Of a stretch of DNA of 41,647 bases, positions 21,211-31,148 are shown piece after piece. The notes under the pieces are model-generated. The model was not told the origin of the DNA, made no database searches, and saw only the letters and a list, made by a program, of their open reading frames with translations. The stretch spans positions 1-41,647 of the forward strand of contig NZ_JAQIBL010000100.1 of the NCBI RefSeq assembly GCF_027859075.1, written 5' to 3'. Source of the DNA: Oceanispirochaeta sp. Its GTDB lineage: Bacteria; Spirochaetota; Spirochaetia; DSM-2461. Position 1 is the stretch's first letter; each line of letters starts with the position of its first letter. The position numbers were made by a program, and so were the translations under genes.

Positions 21211-21260
21211 TATGCAAATGGCCCTATTCCAATGGAACCTCTCATATAGAAGTGGATTTA

Positions 21261-22760
21261 ATGAGTAATCTACGTTCACAAAACCGCTTTTTCTCTGCTT
21301 TAGGAATATTGATTATAATCCTGAGCTTTGCTGGTTTATTGCTGTTTCTTTCGGTCTGGTCTTATGAGGGTACATTTTGGCACAGCTGGTTTCCACTTCT
21401 TATACCAGAGTCCGAGATGAATGATCTGAGGGAAGATTCTTTACTGGAGATAAGCGGTGGTCAATTGATCAGTGAATCCAATAGTATCCTTAAATATAAC
21501 AGTTACAGGACCTTTAAAGAAATCACTGTCAGAGATTTACAGCAGGGCGATAGTTTGTATTATTCTGATCCACGATATGATCCCTATATGAAGGACATTC
21601 CAAAGTATTTCAATCAAGGAATATATAAAATATTCTATTTACCAAATATCCAATCTCCACTAAAATATATCTGGTTTTTTTCACAGTCAGAATTGTGGAC
21701 AGGAACATCCTTGATTCTTCCGGATGCAGACTTTTCTTTTTTTGAACTCTTTCTTTTTTGTATGGCTCTTTTTCTGCTGTGCTGGAGTTCCCCCCGTTTT
21801 ATTATTCCGGGATTTGCGGTACTCTTCCTGGGAATTCACTGCGTTCTGGCCGGTCAGAATCAGATTCTTCTGGTTCTGGCAGTGACAGCCCTCTATTTAA
21901 GGCTTATGATGGCGAGAGATTCAAGATCCCTTTTCTTCTGGATTTTTTCAATCATCCCTGTGGGATTGGCTGTGTTTGGGAATATCATGGATTTCCAGCA
22001 GTCTAAATCTGTTTTTTTTCTATTCTCCCTGACCCTTGGTTCAAACCTCTTTTGGGAAAACCATACAATGAGGAACGTCCAAAAGGGTCTAGGGAAAATG
22101 CAGCATGATCATTTCCTTTTTAAGCCGGTTCCTCTGTATGAGAAGAGGGTGGTGAAGGAGCGGTTAATACGCTCTCCCCTGCTCTTAACGGCTGCCCTGG
22201 TGACCATGATTCTGGCCGTATTCAACTGGCCCGGGGAAAATCTGCTCCCTGTGGATGTTCCCGAAGCTCAGTCCTCTGGTGGAATCTGGGCTGCATCAGA
22301 ATTGAATCCCCGGAAGATGATGAGTCTTTTGCCGGATTCAGAGGATTTCCTGAGGCATAAGGCGTTTCAGGAATCCTTTATGTACGGGGGCAGCTACACT
22401 CTACCTCAGCCGGGATCAGGAATTACTTTGGACGAGTTCGTCATGAAAGATGGCCAAGTACGGGAATCGAGGAAAACCGTCCTTGAGTTCAGCCCTTCCT
22501 GGTTTGAAGCCGGTTTGGCAGAAATGACAGAATCCGGACCGTCAAGGCTCTTAAGAACCGAGCTTGTTCCACCCGTTGTGAGTCTTCGCAGCTCGGTTAT
22601 CTCAGGAATCCATCCGCTCCTGCTTTTAGCATTTGCGGTTCTTATATTTTTAAATGTTTTGATTCGATCCCCGGGAGATCATTCGGTCCGCAGGAATTGG
22701 GCCGTTCTGGGATATGGAAAATCGTTATTTATTTTAAGGAGGAAGCAACAGGCAGCATGA
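21261..22760 (+). CDS. Polytopic membrane protein of unknown function, first gene of the rnf operon
   Basis: I do not recognise the family of this 499-residue protein. It has an N-terminal membrane segment (~residues 12-35), then a soluble stretch of about 120 residues rich in Tyr, Ser and Asp. A cluster of about five hydrophobic helices follows (~155-270), then another near 315-330, a second soluble region, and a last helix near 460-480. The soluble parts may face outside. The ATG at 21261 (GTGGA five bases upstream) is preferred to the GTG at 21252. Its TGA overlaps the rnfC ATG by four bases, so the two are translated together. A role in Rnf assembly, membrane anchoring or regulation is possible but not shown. 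Confidence 0.6.
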   Translation: MSNLRSQNRFFSALGILIIILSFAGLLLFLSVWSYEGTFWHSWFPLLIPESEMNDLREDSLLEISGGQLISESNSILKYNSYRTFKEITVRDLQQGDSLYYSDPRYDPYMKDIPKYFNQGIYKIFYLPNIQSPLKYIWFFSQSELWTGTSLILPDADFSFFELFLFCMALFLLCWSSPRFIIPGFAVLFLGIHCVLAGQNQILLVLAVTALYLRLMMARDSRSLFFWIFSIIPVGLAVFGNIMDFQQSKSVFFLFSLTLGSNLFWENHTMRNVQKGLGKMQHDHFLFKPVPLYEKRVVKERLIRSPLLLTAALVTMILAVFNWPGENLLPVDVPEAQSSGGIWAASELNPRKMMSLLPDSEDFLRHKAFQESFMYGGSYTLPQPGSGITLDEFVMKDGQVRESRKTVLEFSPSWFEAGLAEMTESGPSRLLRTELVPPVVSLRSSVISGIHPLLLLAFAVLIFLNVLIRSPGDHSVRRNWAVLGYGKSLFILRRKQQAA

Positions 22761-24097
22761 GTCGGATAAAAACTTTCCCAAAAGGGGGAATCCATCCTAC
22801 TGATTATAAGGAAGCAACCTGCAACAAAGAAGTGCAGAATGCAAGTTTGACCAGTACAGCGATTGTCCCCCTCTCTCAACATATTGGAGCTCCTTGTGAG
22901 TGTCTTGTGAAAAAAGGTGATCTGGTCGAAGAAGAGCAGATAATTGGCAAATCAGGTGGTTTCGTATCCGCCAATATTCATTCCCCCGTACCGGGTGAAG
23001 TGATTGAAATCAAGCAGATATTCCTTCCCAACGGAATGGCCGTAGAGGCTGTCGTTATTGAAGTGAAGGGTGAGTTCAAACGCCTGGGTAAGGAAAGTCT
23101 TCTTCATGACTGGCGAGTCATGACTAATGAAGAAATCAGTTCAAAAATAGCTGAAATGGGTATCGTCGGTCAGGGTGGGGCTACATTCCCCACCCATGTC
23201 AAGCTTACCCTTCCCAAGGGAAAAAGCTGTGAGACCTTTATAATCAACGCCGTAGAATGTGAACCCTATCTGACTTCAGATCACAGGGTTATGCTTGAAA
23301 AGGGATCTGAAGTTCTGGAAGGTATCCAGATTATGCAGCGCCTTCTGTCTCCCTTGAATACTATTATTGGTATTGAATCCAACAAGATGGATGCAGTGAC
23401 CCTCCTTCAATCATTAATAGCGGAAAAAGGGCTGGATATTGAAGTCATTCCCCTGGAAGTGAAATACCCCCAGGGTGCGGAAAAAAACTTGATTAAAGCC
23501 CTCACGGGGAATGAGGTTCCTTCGGGGAAACTTCCTCTGGAAGTCGGGGTTATCAATGCCAATGTGGGTACCTGTCTCTCCGTTTATGAAGCCCTGGTGC
23601 TGAATAAACCCGTCATTGAACGGATTGTTACTGTTTCCGGTGGAGCAATCAAGAATCCTTCCAACCTGAAGGCACGAGTGGGGACATCCTTCCGGAGTCT
23701 CATTGAAGACTGTGGTGGTTTTTCAGAAGAACCAGTGAAGGTTATTGCCGGAGGGCCCATGATGGGTTTTGCCGTCTATGACCTGGATACTCCTGTGACC
23801 AAGGGGACCAGTGGTATTCTGGCTCTCACGGCAAGGGAGATAAAAGCCTCCAGACCGACGTCCTGTCTTTCCTGCGGTCGTTGTGTCTCCTCCTGTCCCA
23901 TGGGACTCAACCCGACTAAGATCTTTAAGTTTATTGATTTCAATATGTCTGATCAGGCACTTGAAGCCGGATTGATGGACTGCGTAGAATGCGGGTCCTG
24001 TTCCTTTATGTGTCCTGCCCATATTCCTCTGGTACAGGGATTCCGGGGTGGCAAAAAAATCGTCCGGAAAAATTCAATGAAAAAGGCGGGTCAATGA
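22757..24097 (+). CDS. rnfC: Rnf complex subunit RnfC (NADH-oxidoreductase subunit)
   Basis: RnfC is the cytoplasmic NAD(H)- and FMN-binding subunit of the ion-translocating ferredoxin:NAD+ oxidoreductase. The 446-residue protein opens with KGGIHPTDYKE, typical of RnfC. The nucleotide-binding region contains GIVGQGGATFPTHVKL and NAVECEPYLTSDH. The C-terminal third has two 4Fe-4S motifs, CLSCGRCVSSCP and CVECGSCSFMCP. The ATG at 22757 makes a 4-nt ATGA overlap with the membrane protein upstream, and a longer upstream frame lies within that gene. The next overlap, with rnfD, is also ATGA. Confidence 0.93.
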   Translation: MSRIKTFPKGGIHPTDYKEATCNKEVQNASLTSTAIVPLSQHIGAPCECLVKKGDLVEEEQIIGKSGGFVSANIHSPVPGEVIEIKQIFLPNGMAVEAVVIEVKGEFKRLGKESLLHDWRVMTNEEISSKIAEMGIVGQGGATFPTHVKLTLPKGKSCETFIINAVECEPYLTSDHRVMLEKGSEVLEGIQIMQRLLSPLNTIIGIESNKMDAVTLLQSLIAEKGLDIEVIPLEVKYPQGAEKNLIKALTGNEVPSGKLPLEVGVINANVGTCLSVYEALVLNKPVIERIVTVSGGAIKNPSNLKARVGTSFRSLIEDCGGFSEEPVKVIAGGPMMGFAVYDLDTPVTKGTSGILALTAREIKASRPTSCLSCGRCVSSCPMGLNPTKIFKFIDFNMSDQALEAGLMDCVECGSCSFMCPAHIPLVQGFRGGKKIVRKNSMKKAGQ

Positions 24098-25116
24098 AAG
24101 ATAAACTCTTAATTACCAGTTCACCCCAGTTTCACCATTCTCAGAGCACCGCATCCATCATGTGGACCGTATCGCTCTGTCTGCTCCCCGCCGGAATCTG
24201 GGGTATCTATATTTTTGGAATGAGAGCCCTCCTGGTCACCCTGTCTGCCATTATTGCAGCAGTGGGTACGGAGGCTCTTTTAGGACTGATCAAAAAGGAA
24301 AACACAGTCTTTGACGGCAGTGCCTTTTTGACAGGTTTACTCATCGGGTATAATATGCCTCCTGCGGTTCCTCTGTATATTGTGATTGTTGCTTCCGTCA
24401 TTGCCATAGCCGTTGTCAAATGGACATTCGGCGGTCTGGGGGCCAACTGGATGAACCCTGCCCTTGCTGGAAGAGTCTTTGTATTCTTTTCCTGGACCGG
24501 GGGGATGACAAGATGGACTCTCCCTCATCCCGGCGGGCCTGATGTTATCACCGGGCCAACACCCCTGGGATCGTTGAAATCCGGACTGATGTCCATGGCC
24601 GATACAATCCACGGTCCCCTTGATCTCCTGGCTGCCGAAGGAGTTCCCGTCTCTTACATGGATCTCTTTCTGGGTAAAATCCCGGGTTCTATTGGAGAAG
24701 TCTCCGCCCTGCTGCTGATTCTGGGGGGGCTCTTCCTCCTCATCCGAAAGATCGCCAATTGGGAGATCGTTGCTTCCTATCTTGGAAGTTTCCTCCTCCT
24801 TGTCTGGGTCTTCGGCGGCTTTAGATATGGTCAGGGAGCCTTTTCAGGAGATGTCCTGTTTCATCTGCTCTCAGGAGGTCTGATGCTGGGTGTCTTCTTC
24901 ATGGCAACCGATATGGTTACCTCACCCCTTACATCCAAGGGCATGCTGATTTACGGAGTAGGATGCGGTTTTATGACCTTCCTTCTGCGCTTTTTCGGCT
25001 CTGTTCCAGAGGGAGTCTCACTGGCCATCATATTTATGAATATCTTCGTACCTCTTATCAATCGGGCCTTTCAGCCTGAAAAATTCGGCCTGGTAAAAGA
25101 GGAGGCAGCCAGATGA
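24094..25116 (+). CDS. rnfD: Rnf complex subunit RnfD
   Basis: RnfD is a membrane subunit that carries covalent FMN and helps couple electron flow to ion transport. This 340-residue protein has about eight to ten hydrophobic helices and the family segments FDGSAFLTGLLIGYNMPP and GANWMNPALAGRVF. The flavin attachment motif, normally [S/T]GAT, reads TGPT at residues 153-156 (in the context ITGPTPLGSLKSG), so the alanine is a proline. The Thr expected to hold FMN (T156) is present. The ATG at 24094 overlaps the rnfC stop by ATGA, and the gene overlaps rnfG the same way. Confidence 0.92.
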   Translation: MKDKLLITSSPQFHHSQSTASIMWTVSLCLLPAGIWGIYIFGMRALLVTLSAIIAAVGTEALLGLIKKENTVFDGSAFLTGLLIGYNMPPAVPLYIVIVASVIAIAVVKWTFGGLGANWMNPALAGRVFVFFSWTGGMTRWTLPHPGGPDVITGPTPLGSLKSGLMSMADTIHGPLDLLAAEGVPVSYMDLFLGKIPGSIGEVSALLLILGGLFLLIRKIANWEIVASYLGSFLLLVWVFGGFRYGQGAFSGDVLFHLLSGGLMLGVFFMATDMVTSPLTSKGMLIYGVGCGFMTFLLRFFGSVPEGVSLAIIFMNIFVPLINRAFQPEKFGLVKEEAAR

Positions 25117-25652
25117 CAGCAACAATGGAAAAAGCCGGAAAACTGGCCCTGATCTGTGCTTTGTCAGCCCTCATTCTGGGATTTGTGAATACAATAACCG
25201 AACCGGCCATAGCCAGAAGAAAAGCAGCGGAATTAAAGGTCGCTCTTTCATCTCTTCTGGAAGAAGGATCTCCGGGAGCCCGGGAAGATCTTAACGACTC
25301 TTCCACGATCCTTTCCCGCTATCCGATAGAGGGAATGGGAGGATGGATTCTGGAGATGAATGGCAAAGGTTACGGCGGTGATATGAAGATTCTGGCTTCC
25401 TACAGGGACGACGGCTCTATCATCGATGTTGTCCTGATGGATAATACTGAAACCCCGGGGCTGGGAAAGAAAGCGGAAAAACCAGAATATATGGATAAAT
25501 TCCGCGGTACAGGGGGAAGCTCTTCTGTTCCAACGTCAAAAGAAGACCTGGAGTCCCCCGATGCTGTGACGGGGGCTACCATTACTTTTGTCGGGATCGC
25601 CACACCTCTCCATGAGGGGTCCGTCTATGTTCAATCTCTGGGAGACAAATAA
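25113..25652 (+). CDS. rnfG: Rnf complex subunit RnfG
   Basis: RnfG is a mostly periplasmic subunit anchored by one N-terminal helix and carrying covalent FMN. Here 179 residues start with a hydrophobic segment (ALICALSALILGFVNTIT, ~12-29). The FMN_bind domain ends in SPDAVTGATITF, with the consensus TGAT at 153-156 (Thr156 as attachment site). NTETPGLGKK is the usual preceding motif. The protein is somewhat short for the family but has all recognisable landmarks. Start and stop are tightly packed with rnfD (ATGA overlap) and rnfE (directly adjacent). Confidence 0.92.
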   Translation: MTATMEKAGKLALICALSALILGFVNTITEPAIARRKAAELKVALSSLLEEGSPGAREDLNDSSTILSRYPIEGMGGWILEMNGKGYGGDMKILASYRDDGSIIDVVLMDNTETPGLGKKAEKPEYMDKFRGTGGSSSVPTSKEDLESPDAVTGATITFVGIATPLHEGSVYVQSLGDK

Positions 25653-26276
25653 ATGAGTAATATTAGCAAAGGGTTTATCAGAGAAAACCCCATTTTTATA
25701 CTGATGCTGGGCCTCTGTCCTGCATTGGCCGTCTCTACCCAGGTGATAAATGCCCTGGGGATGAGTGCCGGTACCGTCTTTGTTCTTCTGGGTTCCAACA
25801 TTATGGTTGCCTTATTGAAGGATTTCATTCCTGAAGAAATCCATATTCCTGCCTATATCGTCATCATCGCAACTTTTGTTACCCTTGTTGACCTGTTGAT
25901 GCAGGCTTATGCACCGGGGCTTTCAAAGAGCCTGGGTGTTTTTGTTCAGCTCATTGTTGTTAACTGCATTATACTGGGACGAGCCGAGGCCTTTGCCAGT
26001 AAAAACAGTGTAAAAGACTCTGTTGTGGACGCTTTGAGTATGGGCTTCGGCTTCTTTTTCGGGCTGACCCTTATCGCTCTTATCAGAGAGGTCCTGGGAG
26101 CCGGAACGATTACCCTTTTCCCTATGGGGAGCTTTGATGGAGTCATTGAAGTCCCCGGACTGGTCAGTTCTCCTGTCAGAATTATATCTCTGTCAGCGGG
26201 CGCTCTATTTGTTGTCGGGTATCTAAAAGCAGTATTCAACTGGATAAGCTCCCGCCCCGGTAAGGAGGAAAATTAA
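25653..26276 (+). CDS. rnfE: Rnf complex subunit RnfE
   Basis: RnfE and RnfA are homologous integral membrane subunits in inverted topology that share an iron-sulfur centre at their interface. The 207-residue protein begins NPIFILMLGLCPALAVS and contains VVNCIILGRAEAFA; the cysteines in these two motifs are the conserved cluster ligands. About six transmembrane helices are predictable. The ATG directly follows the rnfG TAA stop, with GGGAG upstream inside the end of rnfG. Confidence 0.93.
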   Translation: MSNISKGFIRENPIFILMLGLCPALAVSTQVINALGMSAGTVFVLLGSNIMVALLKDFIPEEIHIPAYIVIIATFVTLVDLLMQAYAPGLSKSLGVFVQLIVVNCIILGRAEAFASKNSVKDSVVDALSMGFGFFFGLTLIALIREVLGAGTITLFPMGSFDGVIEVPGLVSSPVRIISLSAGALFVVGYLKAVFNWISSRPGKEEN

Positions 26277-26279
26277 AAT

Positions 26280-26870
26280 ATGAGTTATTTTGGAATAGTC
26301 GTAACCTATATCTTCATCAGTAACATGATTCTGACCCAGTTTCTGGGACTCTGTCCCTTCATCGGTGTTTCTAAAAATGTTGAATCTGCCATGGGGATGG
26401 GGCTTGCCGTTACTTTTGTCATGTCCATCGCCTCCCTTGTCACCTGGGCACTGTATCATCTGATTCTTATGCCTCTGGGCCTGGACTACCTGCAGACCAT
26501 TGTCTTTATTTTGACAATTGCCTCTCTGGTACAGTTGGTGGAAATGGTCGTACAGAAATATTCGCCTGTACTGTATAAAGCTTTGGGAATTTATCTTCCC
26601 CTGATCACAACAAACTGTGCTGTCATGGGGATCGCCCTGATCAATGTAAAAAGCGGCTATAATGTCCTGGAAAGTTTCACAGCTGGTTTTGCTGCGGGAC
26701 TGGGATTCCTGCTGGCGATTTTGTTGATGTCGGCCATCCGTGTGCAGATGGAAACCGAACGGGTTCCACGCTTTCTAAAGGGGGCTCCCATTGCTTTTAT
26801 CAGTGGTGGACTCATGGCAATGGCCTTTATGGCCTTTGACAATGCCCTTCTGAACAATCTTGTAGGATAA
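26280..26870 (+). CDS. rnfA: Rnf complex subunit RnfA
   Basis: This 196-residue membrane protein has the RnfA landmarks MILTQFLGLCPFIGVS (conserved Cys) and LPLITTNCAVMGIAL (second conserved Cys), and about six helices. It pairs with RnfE in the membrane core. AAGGAGG sits just before the ATG, in the last codons of rnfE, so the two are cotranslated. Confidence 0.93.
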   Translation: MSYFGIVVTYIFISNMILTQFLGLCPFIGVSKNVESAMGMGLAVTFVMSIASLVTWALYHLILMPLGLDYLQTIVFILTIASLVQLVEMVVQKYSPVLYKALGIYLPLITTNCAVMGIALINVKSGYNVLESFTAGFAAGLGFLLAILLMSAIRVQMETERVPRFLKGAPIAFISGGLMAMAFMAFDNALLNNLVG

Positions 26871-26874
26871 ATAA

Positions 26875-27720
26875 ATGGATGTAATTTTAAGAATATTCTG
26901 GGGCTTTCTGTCCACTGTACTCTTCGGGGGACTCCTCGGACTGGGACTGGCCGTGGCCTCACGGAAACTGAAAGTAGAAAAAGATGAGACTGTGGAGGCC
27001 CTGGACGGGGCTCTCCCAGGCTTGAATTGCGGTGCCTGCGGTTATGCCGGCTGCGGCGGATATGCCGAAGCTCTGGCTGCCGGTAAAGATGATGATCTGA
27101 CCAAATGTAAACCCGGCGGAGCCGATACTCTGGCTGGGATCGGTAAAATCCTGGGTGTTGAAGTGGATACTGATGCTGTGAGAATGGTTGCTTATGTCCA
27201 CTGCATAGGAAAAGAAGGAATTGCTTCCCGCAGCTATAATTATAGTGGATTGCAAGACTGTAATGCCGCCACGGTTCTCTTTAACGGAGATAAGGATTGC
27301 AAGTATGGGTGTTTGGGACTGGGCAGCTGTATCAATGTCTGCCCGACGAATGCCATCAGTAAAACCGGGGATGGACTTGTGGTTGTTCATGCCGATCTTT
27401 GTATCTCCTGCGGGAAATGTGTTGACATCTGTCCTACAGGCGTCATGCGTATGATCCCCGAAGATGCTGATTTTGTTGTTGCCTGTAATTCCCGGGATAA
27501 AGGGAAAGTAACCAAAGGTAATTGTAAGGTAGGGTGCATAGCCTGTAAAATCTGTGAGAAAAAATTTCCAGAAGCCGGTTATAAAATACAAGATAATTTG
27601 TCAATTCTGGGTTATGATAATAGAGGTCCGGGCAGAGCAGACGCTGTTGAAAAATGCCCGGTTAAATGTATCATTCCATATAAAGAAGTGAAGGTCAGAA
27701 AAGCATCCAATGCAGGTTGA
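26875..27720 (+). CDS. rnfB: Rnf complex subunit RnfB (ferredoxin-type iron-sulfur subunit)
   Basis: RnfB is the entry point for electrons from reduced ferredoxin. The 281-residue protein has an N-terminal membrane anchor (~residues 5-27), then the CGACGYAGCGGYAEAL four-cysteine cluster motif. Further ferredoxin-type clusters follow: CKYGCLGLGSCINVCP, CISCGKCVDICP and a C-terminal cysteine group (CKVGCIACKICEKKFP...CPVKC). It closes the order rnfCDGEAB, found in clostridia and other anaerobes, where RnfB comes last, unlike the rnfABCDGE order of proteobacteria. A hairpin overlaps its stop codon. Confidence 0.93.
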   Translation: MDVILRIFWGFLSTVLFGGLLGLGLAVASRKLKVEKDETVEALDGALPGLNCGACGYAGCGGYAEALAAGKDDDLTKCKPGGADTLAGIGKILGVEVDTDAVRMVAYVHCIGKEGIASRSYNYSGLQDCNAATVLFNGDKDCKYGCLGLGSCINVCPTNAISKTGDGLVVVHADLCISCGKCVDICPTGVMRMIPEDADFVVACNSRDKGKVTKGNCKVGCIACKICEKKFPEAGYKIQDNLSILGYDNRGPGRADAVEKCPVKCIIPYKEVKVRKASNAG

Positions 27721-27730
27721 TTCAACCTGC
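27712..27730 (+). repeat. Perfect inverted repeat over the rnfB stop codon
   Basis: GCAGGTTGA (27712-27720) and TCAACCTGC (27722-27730) form a 9-bp inverted repeat around one base. There is no T run after it, so it is a weak terminator or RNA-stability element rather than a strong stop. The next gene starts 31 bases after rnfB, so read-through is likely. Confidence 0.6.
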
Positions 27731-27751
27731 TCCTGTGTGCTGACTCCATAA

Positions 27752-29746
27752 ATGAAAAGAATAAAGCTGGTATTCGGAACCCAAAGTACACAAGCTCTCG
27801 ATCTACCTGATCATCTGTACGAAGATGTGTATCAGAAAGCCTATAAACCCTTTCTGACAGCTGTGTATAATTATCCGGATCTGGCTTTGACTTTACACTA
27901 CTCGGGCCCTCTGCTCTCCTGGCTGGAGAGAAGGCATCCCGAGTTTATTACCGTCCTGCGTGAAATGGTTGAGCGGAAACAGGTTGAAATCCTGGGCGGG
28001 GGATATTATGAACCAATTCTTCCTCTTATCCCCGCCTCAGACCGAGTCGGGCAGATTGAGATGATGACCACCTACCTTCGAAAAAATTTCGGTCGCCGAT
28101 CCCGGGGATTCTGGCTGTCACGTCAGATCTGGGATAATCAGTTGGCCCATACTCTGAAAAGCTGCGGAATGGAGTACACTTTTCTCGATGAAACCCGTTT
28201 TAAAGGAGCCGGTATACCCGATTCGAGGATGTTTCATCCTGTGCTGACGGAAGAACAGGGTAAATCCCTTCAGATCTTTCCAATCTGTAAGCGGATTCAG
28301 GATCAAATGTTTCAACAGAATCCCGCAGACCTGGTGGAAGAGATCTGTAAACTTCCATTGGAAAGCAGTAGGGATGCAGTTGTTTCACTGATCCTGCCGG
28401 GAGAGTCGCTGAATCAACAAAAAGGTCATGATTTCATGCCCTGCGATACAGTCTGGCTGGAAGAGTTCTTTACATGTCTGGCAGAAAATAAAGACAGGGT
28501 CGAATCCATCCTCCCCGGCCGATTTGTCAGGGATACGGTTCCTCTGGATAAAAGGTATTTTTCCACATCCAGTTTCGAGGAACTTATGGAGTGGAAGAAA
28601 GACGTCCATACAGCTACTGAGAATGAACAGGCTGGTTCCTGCAATTACCGTCACTTCCTCTCAGTTTACCCCGAGAGTAATCTTCTTTATTCAAAAATGA
28701 TGTACGCCCAGATCCTATCCAATCAGGTGCGGGGTGATCGATACCGTAAAAAATCTTCCAAGGAAGAACTCTGGAAGGGGCAGAATCATAGCCCATTCTG
28801 GCATGGTCCGGGAAAGGGAATATATAACATTCAGCTCCGCCATAACGCCTACCGGTTTTTGATTGAAGCCGAGAAGACCACCCGTGAAAAAGGAATTTTT
28901 ATCCCTGCCCTCATGCCGATGGATTTTGATCTTGATGGACTGAATGAGTACCTCTATCAGGGGCATATCCTGAATGCCTATTGTCATCTGAAGGGAGGCG
29001 CTCTGATTGAGCTTGACTACCTGCCTTCAAGCTGGAACTACCTGAATACACTCAGCAGGCATCGGGACGGAATCGCCAATGGCAGTAAAAGAGACACCTA
29101 CCTCAGGAAAGCCTTTCATGATCATTTCTTTGAATCCCCCGATTTGAGGGCATTCAAGAAAGGCATCTATAAGGAAGAAGGGGATTTTCTAGGTGGTTAT
29201 TATAATGTCCAGAATCATAACAGGGAAAAACATCTTCTGGTATTGATGAGAAATGGCAGTGTAGACAAAAATGGCATAAAGCATCCGATTAGAATCAGAA
29301 AACAGTACGATTTTAAAAGGAACAGCGTTGAGCTTCAGTATGAGCTTACGAATACAGGGTATGAAAAGGTCAGCTATAATTTTGCCAGTGAACTGAACCT
29401 CTCCCTGCCGGCACCATCCAGCTGTGAATCAAAATTCTTTTATATCAACGGACAGGATGATTTTCTTGAAATTGAAGATCAGGTTGCCGAATTAAAGAAT
29501 TTAAAGATACTACAGGTACAGGATATCATGAATAACACATCCATCCAGGTTGAATTCTCAATTCTGCCCGGGCGTTTCTGGTGTCTTCCTCTGGAAGTTC
29601 CCTATAACGGTCATGGTGAAAATGAGCTTTTATACCAGGGAACAACCTTTGTTCCCCACTGGGAAATCACCTTGTTTCCCGGAGAAAGCTGGACCGTCGA
29701 TATCAGCCTGAAAGTTGGTAAAAGCCGGGGTAAGGCCTTCGCCTGA
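27752..29746 (+). CDS. GH57 alpha-amylase/4-alpha-glucanotransferase-like protein, catalytic residues lost
   Basis: The 664-residue protein aligns along its length with GH57 4-alpha-glucanotransferases, as recalled from the Thermococcus litoralis enzyme. Preserved parts are the barrel start (LVFG, YKPFL, LHYSGPLLSWLERRHPEF), GGGYYEPIL (82-90, Glu87), FWHG near residue 350, and the C-terminal beta-sandwich. The catalytic sites are changed. HNHQP at the first motif is QSTQA (11-15). The nucleophile position of WLTERVW is Arg124 in WLSRQIW. The acid/base Asp of the DDGEKFG motif is replaced in LPGESL (215-220). It should bind but not cleave alpha-glucans. No signal peptide is seen. It lies 31 nt after rnfB, without a strong terminator between, so it may be cotranscribed. 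Confidence 0.85.
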   Translation: MKRIKLVFGTQSTQALDLPDHLYEDVYQKAYKPFLTAVYNYPDLALTLHYSGPLLSWLERRHPEFITVLREMVERKQVEILGGGYYEPILPLIPASDRVGQIEMMTTYLRKNFGRRSRGFWLSRQIWDNQLAHTLKSCGMEYTFLDETRFKGAGIPDSRMFHPVLTEEQGKSLQIFPICKRIQDQMFQQNPADLVEEICKLPLESSRDAVVSLILPGESLNQQKGHDFMPCDTVWLEEFFTCLAENKDRVESILPGRFVRDTVPLDKRYFSTSSFEELMEWKKDVHTATENEQAGSCNYRHFLSVYPESNLLYSKMMYAQILSNQVRGDRYRKKSSKEELWKGQNHSPFWHGPGKGIYNIQLRHNAYRFLIEAEKTTREKGIFIPALMPMDFDLDGLNEYLYQGHILNAYCHLKGGALIELDYLPSSWNYLNTLSRHRDGIANGSKRDTYLRKAFHDHFFESPDLRAFKKGIYKEEGDFLGGYYNVQNHNREKHLLVLMRNGSVDKNGIKHPIRIRKQYDFKRNSVELQYELTNTGYEKVSYNFASELNLSLPAPSSCESKFFYINGQDDFLEIEDQVAELKNLKILQVQDIMNNTSIQVEFSILPGRFWCLPLEVPYNGHGENELLYQGTTFVPHWEITLFPGESWTVDISLKVGKSRGKAFA

Positions 29747-29796: not shown

Positions 29797-31056
29797 TTAT
29801 TCCAGATCCAGTGTCTTGCTCAATATCCTTCTCTGTTCAAAAATGCTGAGCATCCAGGCATTTGACTCACCGTAGTAAACCGACCGGGCTATTAGAAAAT
29901 CCATAAAAGCAAACTCCAGATTTCCCAGGAAATAATGAGCCTGTCCTTTGTAAAAGTGAAGGCGGCTTTGTACTTCAGGGTCAAAGCTTGTTTTAATCTG
30001 CTCTTCAGAGCGCCTGAGAAGGCTTTCCCAATCTCCCGTTTCAATCAGTTCTATGACCCAGGATGTTTCGGGTGGAGCTGAGCCAGTGCGTTCAATGCTC
30101 AGCAGCCGGGGCTGTCTCCAGACCGACGGATGAACTGATTTTCCGAGATTGAGTTCTGCCAGAGCCTGTTTTGTTTCACGGGATAACTCCACTGGGACAT
30201 CGGGGATTCCCATCTCAGGCAGTCTTTTTCCCCTTTCGATATCCAGTTCTATATTGAGCAGGGGGAGGGGGTTGTGTCTTGAGGCAAACTGAAAGGAATG
30301 GGCTGTCTCAGAGCTCCATTCTTCTAGAGGAATCATGACAGGCCGGGCTGTGACACTTCCATCATAGAGGAGAATTCGGCTTCCAGACTCATAAAGAGAT
30401 TGATCAACCAGAGCATAATAAAATGAAATTCCCGGTACAACCTGGTCCCTTAATTCTATGGTTTCATTGACAAAAACCCTCACCTGGGTGGCATCTGCCA
30501 GATCTTCTCTGTTTTCAAGCGGGTTCGTGCTCCTGAAAAGGATCAAGGATCGCCCGGGATTACTGCTATCAGCCCTTATCAGGAGTGCCTGAGACTCCGG
30601 AAGGACTTTAAGAGAAGAGATCCGGGCTGCTTTTTCTTCCTGAATCACCACTCTTTCGGCACTGACCTTCTCCATGGTCATATTCCGGTAGGGAATGAAG
30701 ACATCAAACAACACTCCCTCTTCCTCTGCCAGTATCAGAAAATAGCGGGGCTTTGAATCACCCGGCTCATAGAGAAAGCTTTCTATTCTGCTGCCCAGGC
30801 TTGCAATTTTTCGGGTATAGATAAAACGTTCGGGATCAAAGGGTTGTTCAGATTCATAGATATTATAAAAGGGTGACCGAAGATTACTGGCGTCTTTCCA
30901 GGTCAGCAGTATTCCGCTTCCTTTCGTCTCCGCATTCAAGCGGGATATAAAGGGCGCGAATACCCTGTTTTCTTCGGGATTGCCTGTCTGAGCTGCCGCT
31001 TGGAGTGTCATAAGGCACAACAGAAGGATGATGGGAAGCTGTTTTATTTTTTTCAT
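29797..31056 (-). CDS. Secreted FN3-like protein with C-terminal TPR-like helices
   Basis: I do not recognise a named family. The ATG at 31056 gives a 419-residue product with a clear signal peptide (MKKIKQLPIILLLCLMTLQAAAQ). Residues ~45-140 look like a fibronectin type III-like sandwich (GILLTWKDAS, FYNIYESEQPFD). A second similar sandwich follows around residues 140-250. The C-terminal ~90 residues are helical and resemble one or two TPR units (LHFYKGQAHYFLGNLEFAFMDFLIARSVY). It is likely periplasmic. The ribosome site is weak. It is divergent from the FliG paralogue with a 98-bp gap, so a role in flagellar or envelope structure is possible but unproven. Confidence 0.6.
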   Translation of the reverse strand: MKKIKQLPIILLLCLMTLQAAAQTGNPEENRVFAPFISRLNAETKGSGILLTWKDASNLRSPFYNIYESEQPFDPERFIYTRKIASLGSRIESFLYEPGDSKPRYFLILAEEEGVLFDVFIPYRNMTMEKVSAERVVIQEEKAARISSLKVLPESQALLIRADSSNPGRSLILFRSTNPLENREDLADATQVRVFVNETIELRDQVVPGISFYYALVDQSLYESGSRILLYDGSVTARPVMIPLEEWSSETAHSFQFASRHNPLPLLNIELDIERGKRLPEMGIPDVPVELSRETKQALAELNLGKSVHPSVWRQPRLLSIERTGSAPPETSWVIELIETGDWESLLRRSEEQIKTSFDPEVQSRLHFYKGQAHYFLGNLEFAFMDFLIARSVYYGESNAWMLSIFEQRRILSKTLDLE

Positions 31057-31119
31057 AGTATTCTCATCTTCATAATCGGCAGGTTCCCTCATAATCAGAA
31101 CAAAAAAAGAACTCCGCCG

Positions 31120-31148
31120 TTGACCCACCGGGGAGCTGCCTTTAATAT
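31120..31148 (+). promoter_or_regulatory. Putative promoter giving a leaderless fliG-paralogue transcript
   Basis: TTGACC at 31120-31125 and TAATAT at 31143-31148 are 17 nt apart. The ATG at 31155 begins six bases after the -10, where transcription should start. No ribosome site lies at a working distance (the nearest G-rich run is some 20 bases away). Confidence 0.5.

Follow-up and report, generated by a model that had tools for sequence, protein, structure and literature searches.

The window analysed here, a stretch of 41,647 nucleotides of Oceanispirochaeta DNA, carries an rnf operon of the order orfM-rnfCDGEAB-GH57L (Table 1). The RnfC protein of the window has both of its 4Fe-4S motifs and the sequence GQGGATFP, the motif of the NADH/FMN site, intact.

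Table 1. The orfM-rnf-GH57L operon of the window and the conserved sequence regions (CSR) of GH57L
Feature	Position	Strand	Description	Basis
orfM	21261..22760	+	Uncharacterised membrane protein, first gene of orfM-rnfCDGEAB-GH57L; ORF opens at 21252	
rnfC	22757..24097	+	ORF opens at 22697; likely start at 22757, overlapping the orfM stop	TIGR01945, 529 bits
rnfD	24094..25116	+	ORF opens at 23989; likely start at 24094	
rnfG	25113..25652	+	TGAT flavinylation-type motif	Motif read from sequence
rnfE	25653..26276	+	Also a sub-cut-off match to the related rnfA model	
rnfA	26280..26870	+		TIGR01943, over cut-off
rnfB	26875..27720	+	Fe-S motifs intact; 31 bp upstream of GH57L	Translation
GH57L	27752..29746	+	664-aa GH57 4-alpha-glucanotransferase-like pseudoenzyme; closes the rnf operon	
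Degenerate CSR-1	27782..27796	+	Residues 11-15, QSTQA; HNHQP in active enzymes	Alignment with 1k1w and 8 canonical outgroup enzymes
CSR-2	27977..27994	+	Residues 76-81, KQVEIL; E79 retained	
Degenerate CSR-3	28112..28132	+	Residues 121-127, WLSRQIW in place of WLTERVW; R124 at the nucleophile Glu; W127 invariant	
Degenerate CSR-4	28394..28411	+	Residues 215-220, LPGESL; P216 at the acid/base Asp	

The GH57L frame is uninterrupted from its ATG at 27752 through 664 codons to the stop that ends at 29746, as a preliminary description of this DNA had read it. All three domains of the GH57 fold family were found by Pfam over cut-off, the catalytic (GH57, PF03065, 3e-37), the middle (AmyA-A_glucT_m, PF09094, 3e-11) and the C-terminal domain (AmyA-gluTrfs_C, PF09095, 3e-33); no NCBIfam model matched the protein. 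Among solved proteins, the 4-alpha-glucanotransferase of Thermococcus litoralis (1k1w, E 1e-55) is its closest relative, and the two share the whole fold and the order of the three domains. The AF2 model of GH57L, made with 59 own-locus sequences, has a mean pLDDT of 89.9 and a pTM of 0.91, and it superimposes on 1k1x with a Z of 39.6 and an rmsd of 2.4 Å over 601 residues, at 26% structural sequence identity. A loop of low confidence (residues 224-228, pLDDT below 50) lies just after the degenerate CSR-4.

On alignment to 1k1w, H11, N12 and H13 are replaced in the window protein by Q, S and T, the nucleophile E123 by R124 and the acid/base D214 by P216; W221 is replaced as well. The CSR-1 His, CSR-3 Glu and CSR-4 Asp are all lacking, and the CSR-2 Glu is present as E79. 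The three substitutions noted beforehand, QSTQA, R124 and LPGESL, lie where they had been placed, and in the alignment with characterised GH57 enzymes that had been proposed as a check, R124 and P216 occupy the catalytic positions with no Glu or Asp there. The accompanying statement that all catalytic motifs are replaced is true of the catalytic residues only, since E79, W121 and W127 (W120 and W126 in 1k1w), the PESN segment and the WHG of CSR-5 are kept. We rejected an assembly error as the source of the R/P pair because the same pair occurs in a congener whose genome is closed as one contig (G002, 85% identity). The genome of the window (G000) holds two more ORFs that match the GH57 Pfam model, with frames of 573 and 797 aa on contig C133 (L032, L033); on the strength of that match, true GH57 activity may come from elsewhere in the genome.

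A protein search found a GH57L orthologue in 56 of 61 related genomes, nearly always at full length, and a scan of named genomes returned 208 related stretches, the best 80 of which come, judging by their titles, almost exclusively from spirochaetes, with one labelled simply 'bacterium'. Alkalispirochaeta alkalica is among the carriers. As shown by neighbourhood profile searches, GH57L is linked to at least one rnf gene in 27 of the 29 GTDB families that carry it, and this linkage is co-directional across distant taxa. Among the best 80 named loci, GH57L lies downstream of rnf in nearly all that have enough upstream sequence. Where a locus extends far enough upstream, its genes almost always run orfM-rnfCD(G)EA(B)-GH57L. 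The position after rnfB, to which novelty had been attributed, was correctly described; it is no peculiarity of this genome and is the rule in the class Spirochaetia. The exceptions to the linkage are family f8 (L043, L044), where GH57L lies away from rnf, and family f27 (L037), where it is beside orfM only. One genome of family f32 (G166) has GH57L and rnf on different contigs, the other members of that family being linked. Nearly every genome examined that has Rnf also has GH57L. The gene was not found in seven Borreliaceae-like genomes, in G034, which has essentially no rnfC, in G039 (rnfC at 137 bits) or in G046, a true exception with rnfC at 411 bits. Many of the GH57L-linked operons have no detectable rnfB, and RnfB was therefore rejected as an obligatory partner.

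To give the loss of the catalytic residues a direction, the family was rooted with nine outgroup rows, 1k1w and eight GH57 homologues belonging to other Spirochaetota classes (L148-L155). These eight have a GH57L-like architecture, are about 685-726 aa long and represent the closest intact outgroup; unlike GH57L, they keep all catalytic residues, HNHQP, WxxERxW and DDGE being unaltered in 8/8. The 4-6.5 kb fetched around them contained no detectable rnf gene. In a quick maximum likelihood tree with SH-aLRT values only, which contains long branches and leaves out the seven most aberrant rows, GH57L forms a single clade against these homologues and 1k1w with a support of 100. The nucleophile Glu is kept in 65 of the 112 GH57L proteins on the tree, the acid/base Asp in 37, both in 22, H11 in 24 and H13 in 17 (replaced in 95). 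With canonical residues placed at the root, at least 18 changes are needed for the Glu and 25 for the Asp, and the Dollo losses number 21 and 30, counts that depend on an alignment anchored at CSR-3 by the invariant W127 and less firmly at CSR-4. E123 is replaced across lineages by R, G, S, Y, D, K, Q, F, N or A, and D214 by P, N, E, S, K, R and others; in the genus of the window alone, both R/P and G/S are present. These varied residues and the at least 18 and 25 changes led us to reject a single ancestral origin of the pseudoenzyme with substitutions fixed from then on. The variety of the replacements and the 22 members still with Glu and Asp indicate repeated independent loss and not one founding event, and a conserved substitution at each of the three sites, which had been predicted for a pseudoenzyme family, was not what the spirochaetes display.

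Substitutions were compared between the window and G002. The nonsynonymous distance is 0.092. With synonymous sites close to saturation (pS 0.74), the ratio of the two is approximate, yet far below 1; the adjacent rnf genes have a similar substitution pattern. Selection on GH57L is purifying in a genus that had already lost the dyad. Together with the full-length orthologues found class-wide, this led us to reject a pseudogene or decay, and the original proposal of a pseudoenzyme under selection was upheld. The catalytic columns of the family range from the 26th to the 64th percentile of conservation. Residues conserved at 98-100% are E79, Q101, E103, R110, W127, K333, D391, D422 and K517; E103, R110, Y313, K333 and D422 are not shared by all nine outgroup rows.

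The repeated loss of the catalytic residues from a protein kept in the rnf operon suggests that GH57L probably serves the Rnf complex rather than digesting sugar. More specifically, we give about an even chance to GH57L being a non-catalytic cytosolic accessory, either a subunit or an assembly/regulatory factor, of a spirochaetal Rnf/orfM assembly. A gene of the ancestral GH57 4-alpha-glucanotransferase type would have become established as the last gene of the rnf operon early in the history of the class Spirochaetia, in a new role for which the fold and surfaces away from the catalytic centre matter. The catalytic residues, no longer needed, would then have been lost by drift, independently in many lineages. 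The protein would dock at the cytoplasmic side of Rnf subunits, of the membrane protein orfM, or of both, and act there as a structural subunit or as an assembly or regulatory factor. No transmembrane or hydrophobic segment was found in GH57L, from which we infer that it is cytosolic. Its C-terminal domain (residues 384-659) resembles mutarotases (Z about 21) and also matches 9grx_2 and 7wff_b (Z about 17.9), subunits of the chloroplast NDH-PSI supercomplex with the same mutarotase-like fold, which we take to be PnsB2. In plants, PnsB2 arose from a lineage of assembly factors (PMC8211685). The chloroplast NDH could serve as a precedent, by analogy of fold and silent on function, for a carbohydrate-enzyme fold in an ion-pumping electron-transport complex; it is a complex unrelated to Rnf, and the likeness is confined to the C-terminal domain.

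The gene that opens the cluster class-wide, orfM, which the preliminary description passed over, is a 502-aa ORF in the window with several hydrophobic segments and no convincing match in Pfam or NCBIfam. It has the conserved motifs DPRxDPY and LADYLAHRAxQExFxYG. Its AF2 model (pLDDT 80) gave weak matches in fold searches, nearly all to membrane proteins of the RND/SSD superfamily (Foldseek best E 0.02, Z no higher than 6.2), and these were too weak for an assignment of orfM to that type. Over the 39 loci that hold all the genes, the evolutionary distances of GH57L correlate most strongly with those of orfM (0.67), followed by RnfC (0.54), a downstream convergent control gene (0.38) and RnfD (0.31), and the partial correlations given the control are 0.60 for orfM, 0.46 for RnfC and 0.25 for RnfD; since these statistics ignore shared phylogeny, the rate coupling offers weak support. 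At three loci that have no rnf gene (L037, L101, L138) orfM immediately precedes GH57L, so the primary partner of GH57L may be orfM. A tentative alternative, overlapping with the accessory role proposed above and less probable than it, is that GH57L and orfM form a membrane-associated module that merely shares an operon with Rnf. The adjacency at the three loci and the strength of the orfM correlation would be expected of such a module. However, orfM survives without GH57L, adjoining an RnfC-like gene, in the Borreliaceae-like genomes and in G039, and it was not detected in the GH57L carriers G031, G036, G056, G058, G098 and G215, where rapid divergence could hide it.

The preliminary description had also suggested glycogen binding. 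Most GH57L carriers examined have glgA, the gene screened for glycogen synthase, and GH57L is retained in seven genomes in which no glgA reaches the curated cut-off (G036, G037, G056, G059, G060, G098 and G166). These carriers weaken glycogen as a universal ligand and leave a glycogen role unsupported as a general function. In a wider form of this idea, the eroded cleft would still bind an alpha-glucan, maltodextrin or other metabolite without cleaving it and tune Rnf/orfM to the carbohydrate status of the cell. GH57 domains belong to carbohydrate proteins by descent, and parts of the cleft are kept despite the lost catalysis: E79 in 118/119 family members, W121 in 99/119 with an aromatic residue in most others, and the W of the CSR-5 WH segment in 95/107. 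We nevertheless regard such a ligand sensor as doubtful, since at least seven carriers, including a Treponema-like genome of 1.1 Mb, are without glgA over cut-off, H11, H13 and W221, presumably part of the substrate site in the 1k1w enzyme, are not conserved in GH57L, CSR-5 D354 is among the least conserved positions (14th percentile) and the CSR-4 loop is poorly modelled.

It is less probable still, and on the whole unlikely, that GH57L remains an enzyme throughout, with the lineages that keep Glu and Asp as active 4-alpha-glucanotransferases, the others using different residues or catalysing a new reaction, and the place in the operon reflecting mere co-transcription. With both residues kept in 22/112, some GH57L members may indeed still be catalytic, as far as can be read from their sequences. 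The early-branching L023 and L085 are among those keeping both, together with a CSR-4 of the DDGEKFG type, and several carboxylates and lysines are near-invariant across the family. Of the eight Glu/Asp-keepers with H11 that were inspected, one (L108) also has H13; it is the lone member of the 112 with all four residues. But H13 is replaced in the great majority of the proteins. The replacements of Glu and Asp vary even within one genus, a variation that no single alternative mechanism predicts, and D457, K517 and E547 look structural, being mostly conserved in the canonical enzymes too. Finally, a slowly decaying relic of an ancestral glucanotransferase, to which the ongoing loss of active-site residues and the short or fast-evolving L043, L048, L053 and L056 could be ascribed, is very improbable in view of the near-universal full-length frames, the retention in reduced genomes, the purifying selection after loss of the dyad and the newly fixed residues.

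Catalytically deficient relatives of GH57 enzymes were already known, as had been remarked for this gene. In the parts of PMC6037648 that deal with them, the '4AGT-like' proteins of Janecek and colleagues are bacterial, closest to 4AGT, lack one or both catalytic residues with few exceptions, and are defined by conserved motifs alone; GH57L adds genomic context, the linkage to Rnf and a polarity given by the outgroup. Among the matches listed in a search of the open-licence literature, none dealt with GH57 or orfM as part of an rnf operon, and the Rnf linkage appears to be the new part. Amylase or glucanotransferase labels on such GH57 genes are probably misleading in most Spirochaetia genomes. 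Descriptions of Rnf usually give it six core subunits; if the accessory role of GH57L is true, a class-wide seventh Rnf-linked gene would be a clear natural case of the conversion of an enzyme to a subunit.

Besides canonical rnf, many loci are occupied by a divergent Rnf-like operon, and GH57L accompanies both kinds. The divergent operons encode an RnfC-like protein with two 4Fe-4S motifs and without GxGGxxFP, their RnfD, RnfE and RnfA are strongly diverged, and RnfB is often not detected. GH57L terminates such operons at L074, L080, L094, L096, L121, L165 and similar loci, and several of the genomes concerned also carry canonical rnf elsewhere. In the Treponema-like G098, a single contig of 1.14 Mb, an RnfC-like gene, an RnfD-like gene, two further divergent membrane ORFs and, at the end of the operon, GH57L lie in succession. 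A Borreliaceae-like locus (L168, G135:C1:62000-74000) has orfM, followed by an RnfC-like ORF of 781 aa that lacks both 4Fe-4S motifs and by an RnfA-like ORF; this Rnf-derived cluster apparently has no iron-sulphur sites. The Rnf of T. pallidum has been proposed as 'noncanonical' (PMC7512555), and GH57L and orfM would be concrete candidates for the non-canonical Rnf of the syphilis spirochaete. A broader scheme, which we hold at somewhat less than an even chance, is that the Spirochaetia evolved a modified Rnf with two lineage-specific accessories, the GH57 pseudoenzyme at the cytoplasmic side and orfM, and that host-associated spirochaetes later retained parts of it in an altered or non-redox function, as exemplified by GH57L with a diverged operon in the Treponema-like genome and by orfM with the RnfC-like protein without 4Fe-4S motifs in the Borreliaceae-like one.

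Two minor features flank GH57L in the window. The rnfB/GH57L junction (27713-27731) contains a near-perfect inverted repeat, GCAGGTTGATTCAACCTGC, with no T run, possibly an element of mRNA processing or attenuation. On the other side, an ORF of 443 aa on the reverse strand (29797-31128), without a match in Pfam or NCBIfam, is a convergent neighbour of GH57L conserved in most loci, and in nearer relatives fliG lies beyond it.
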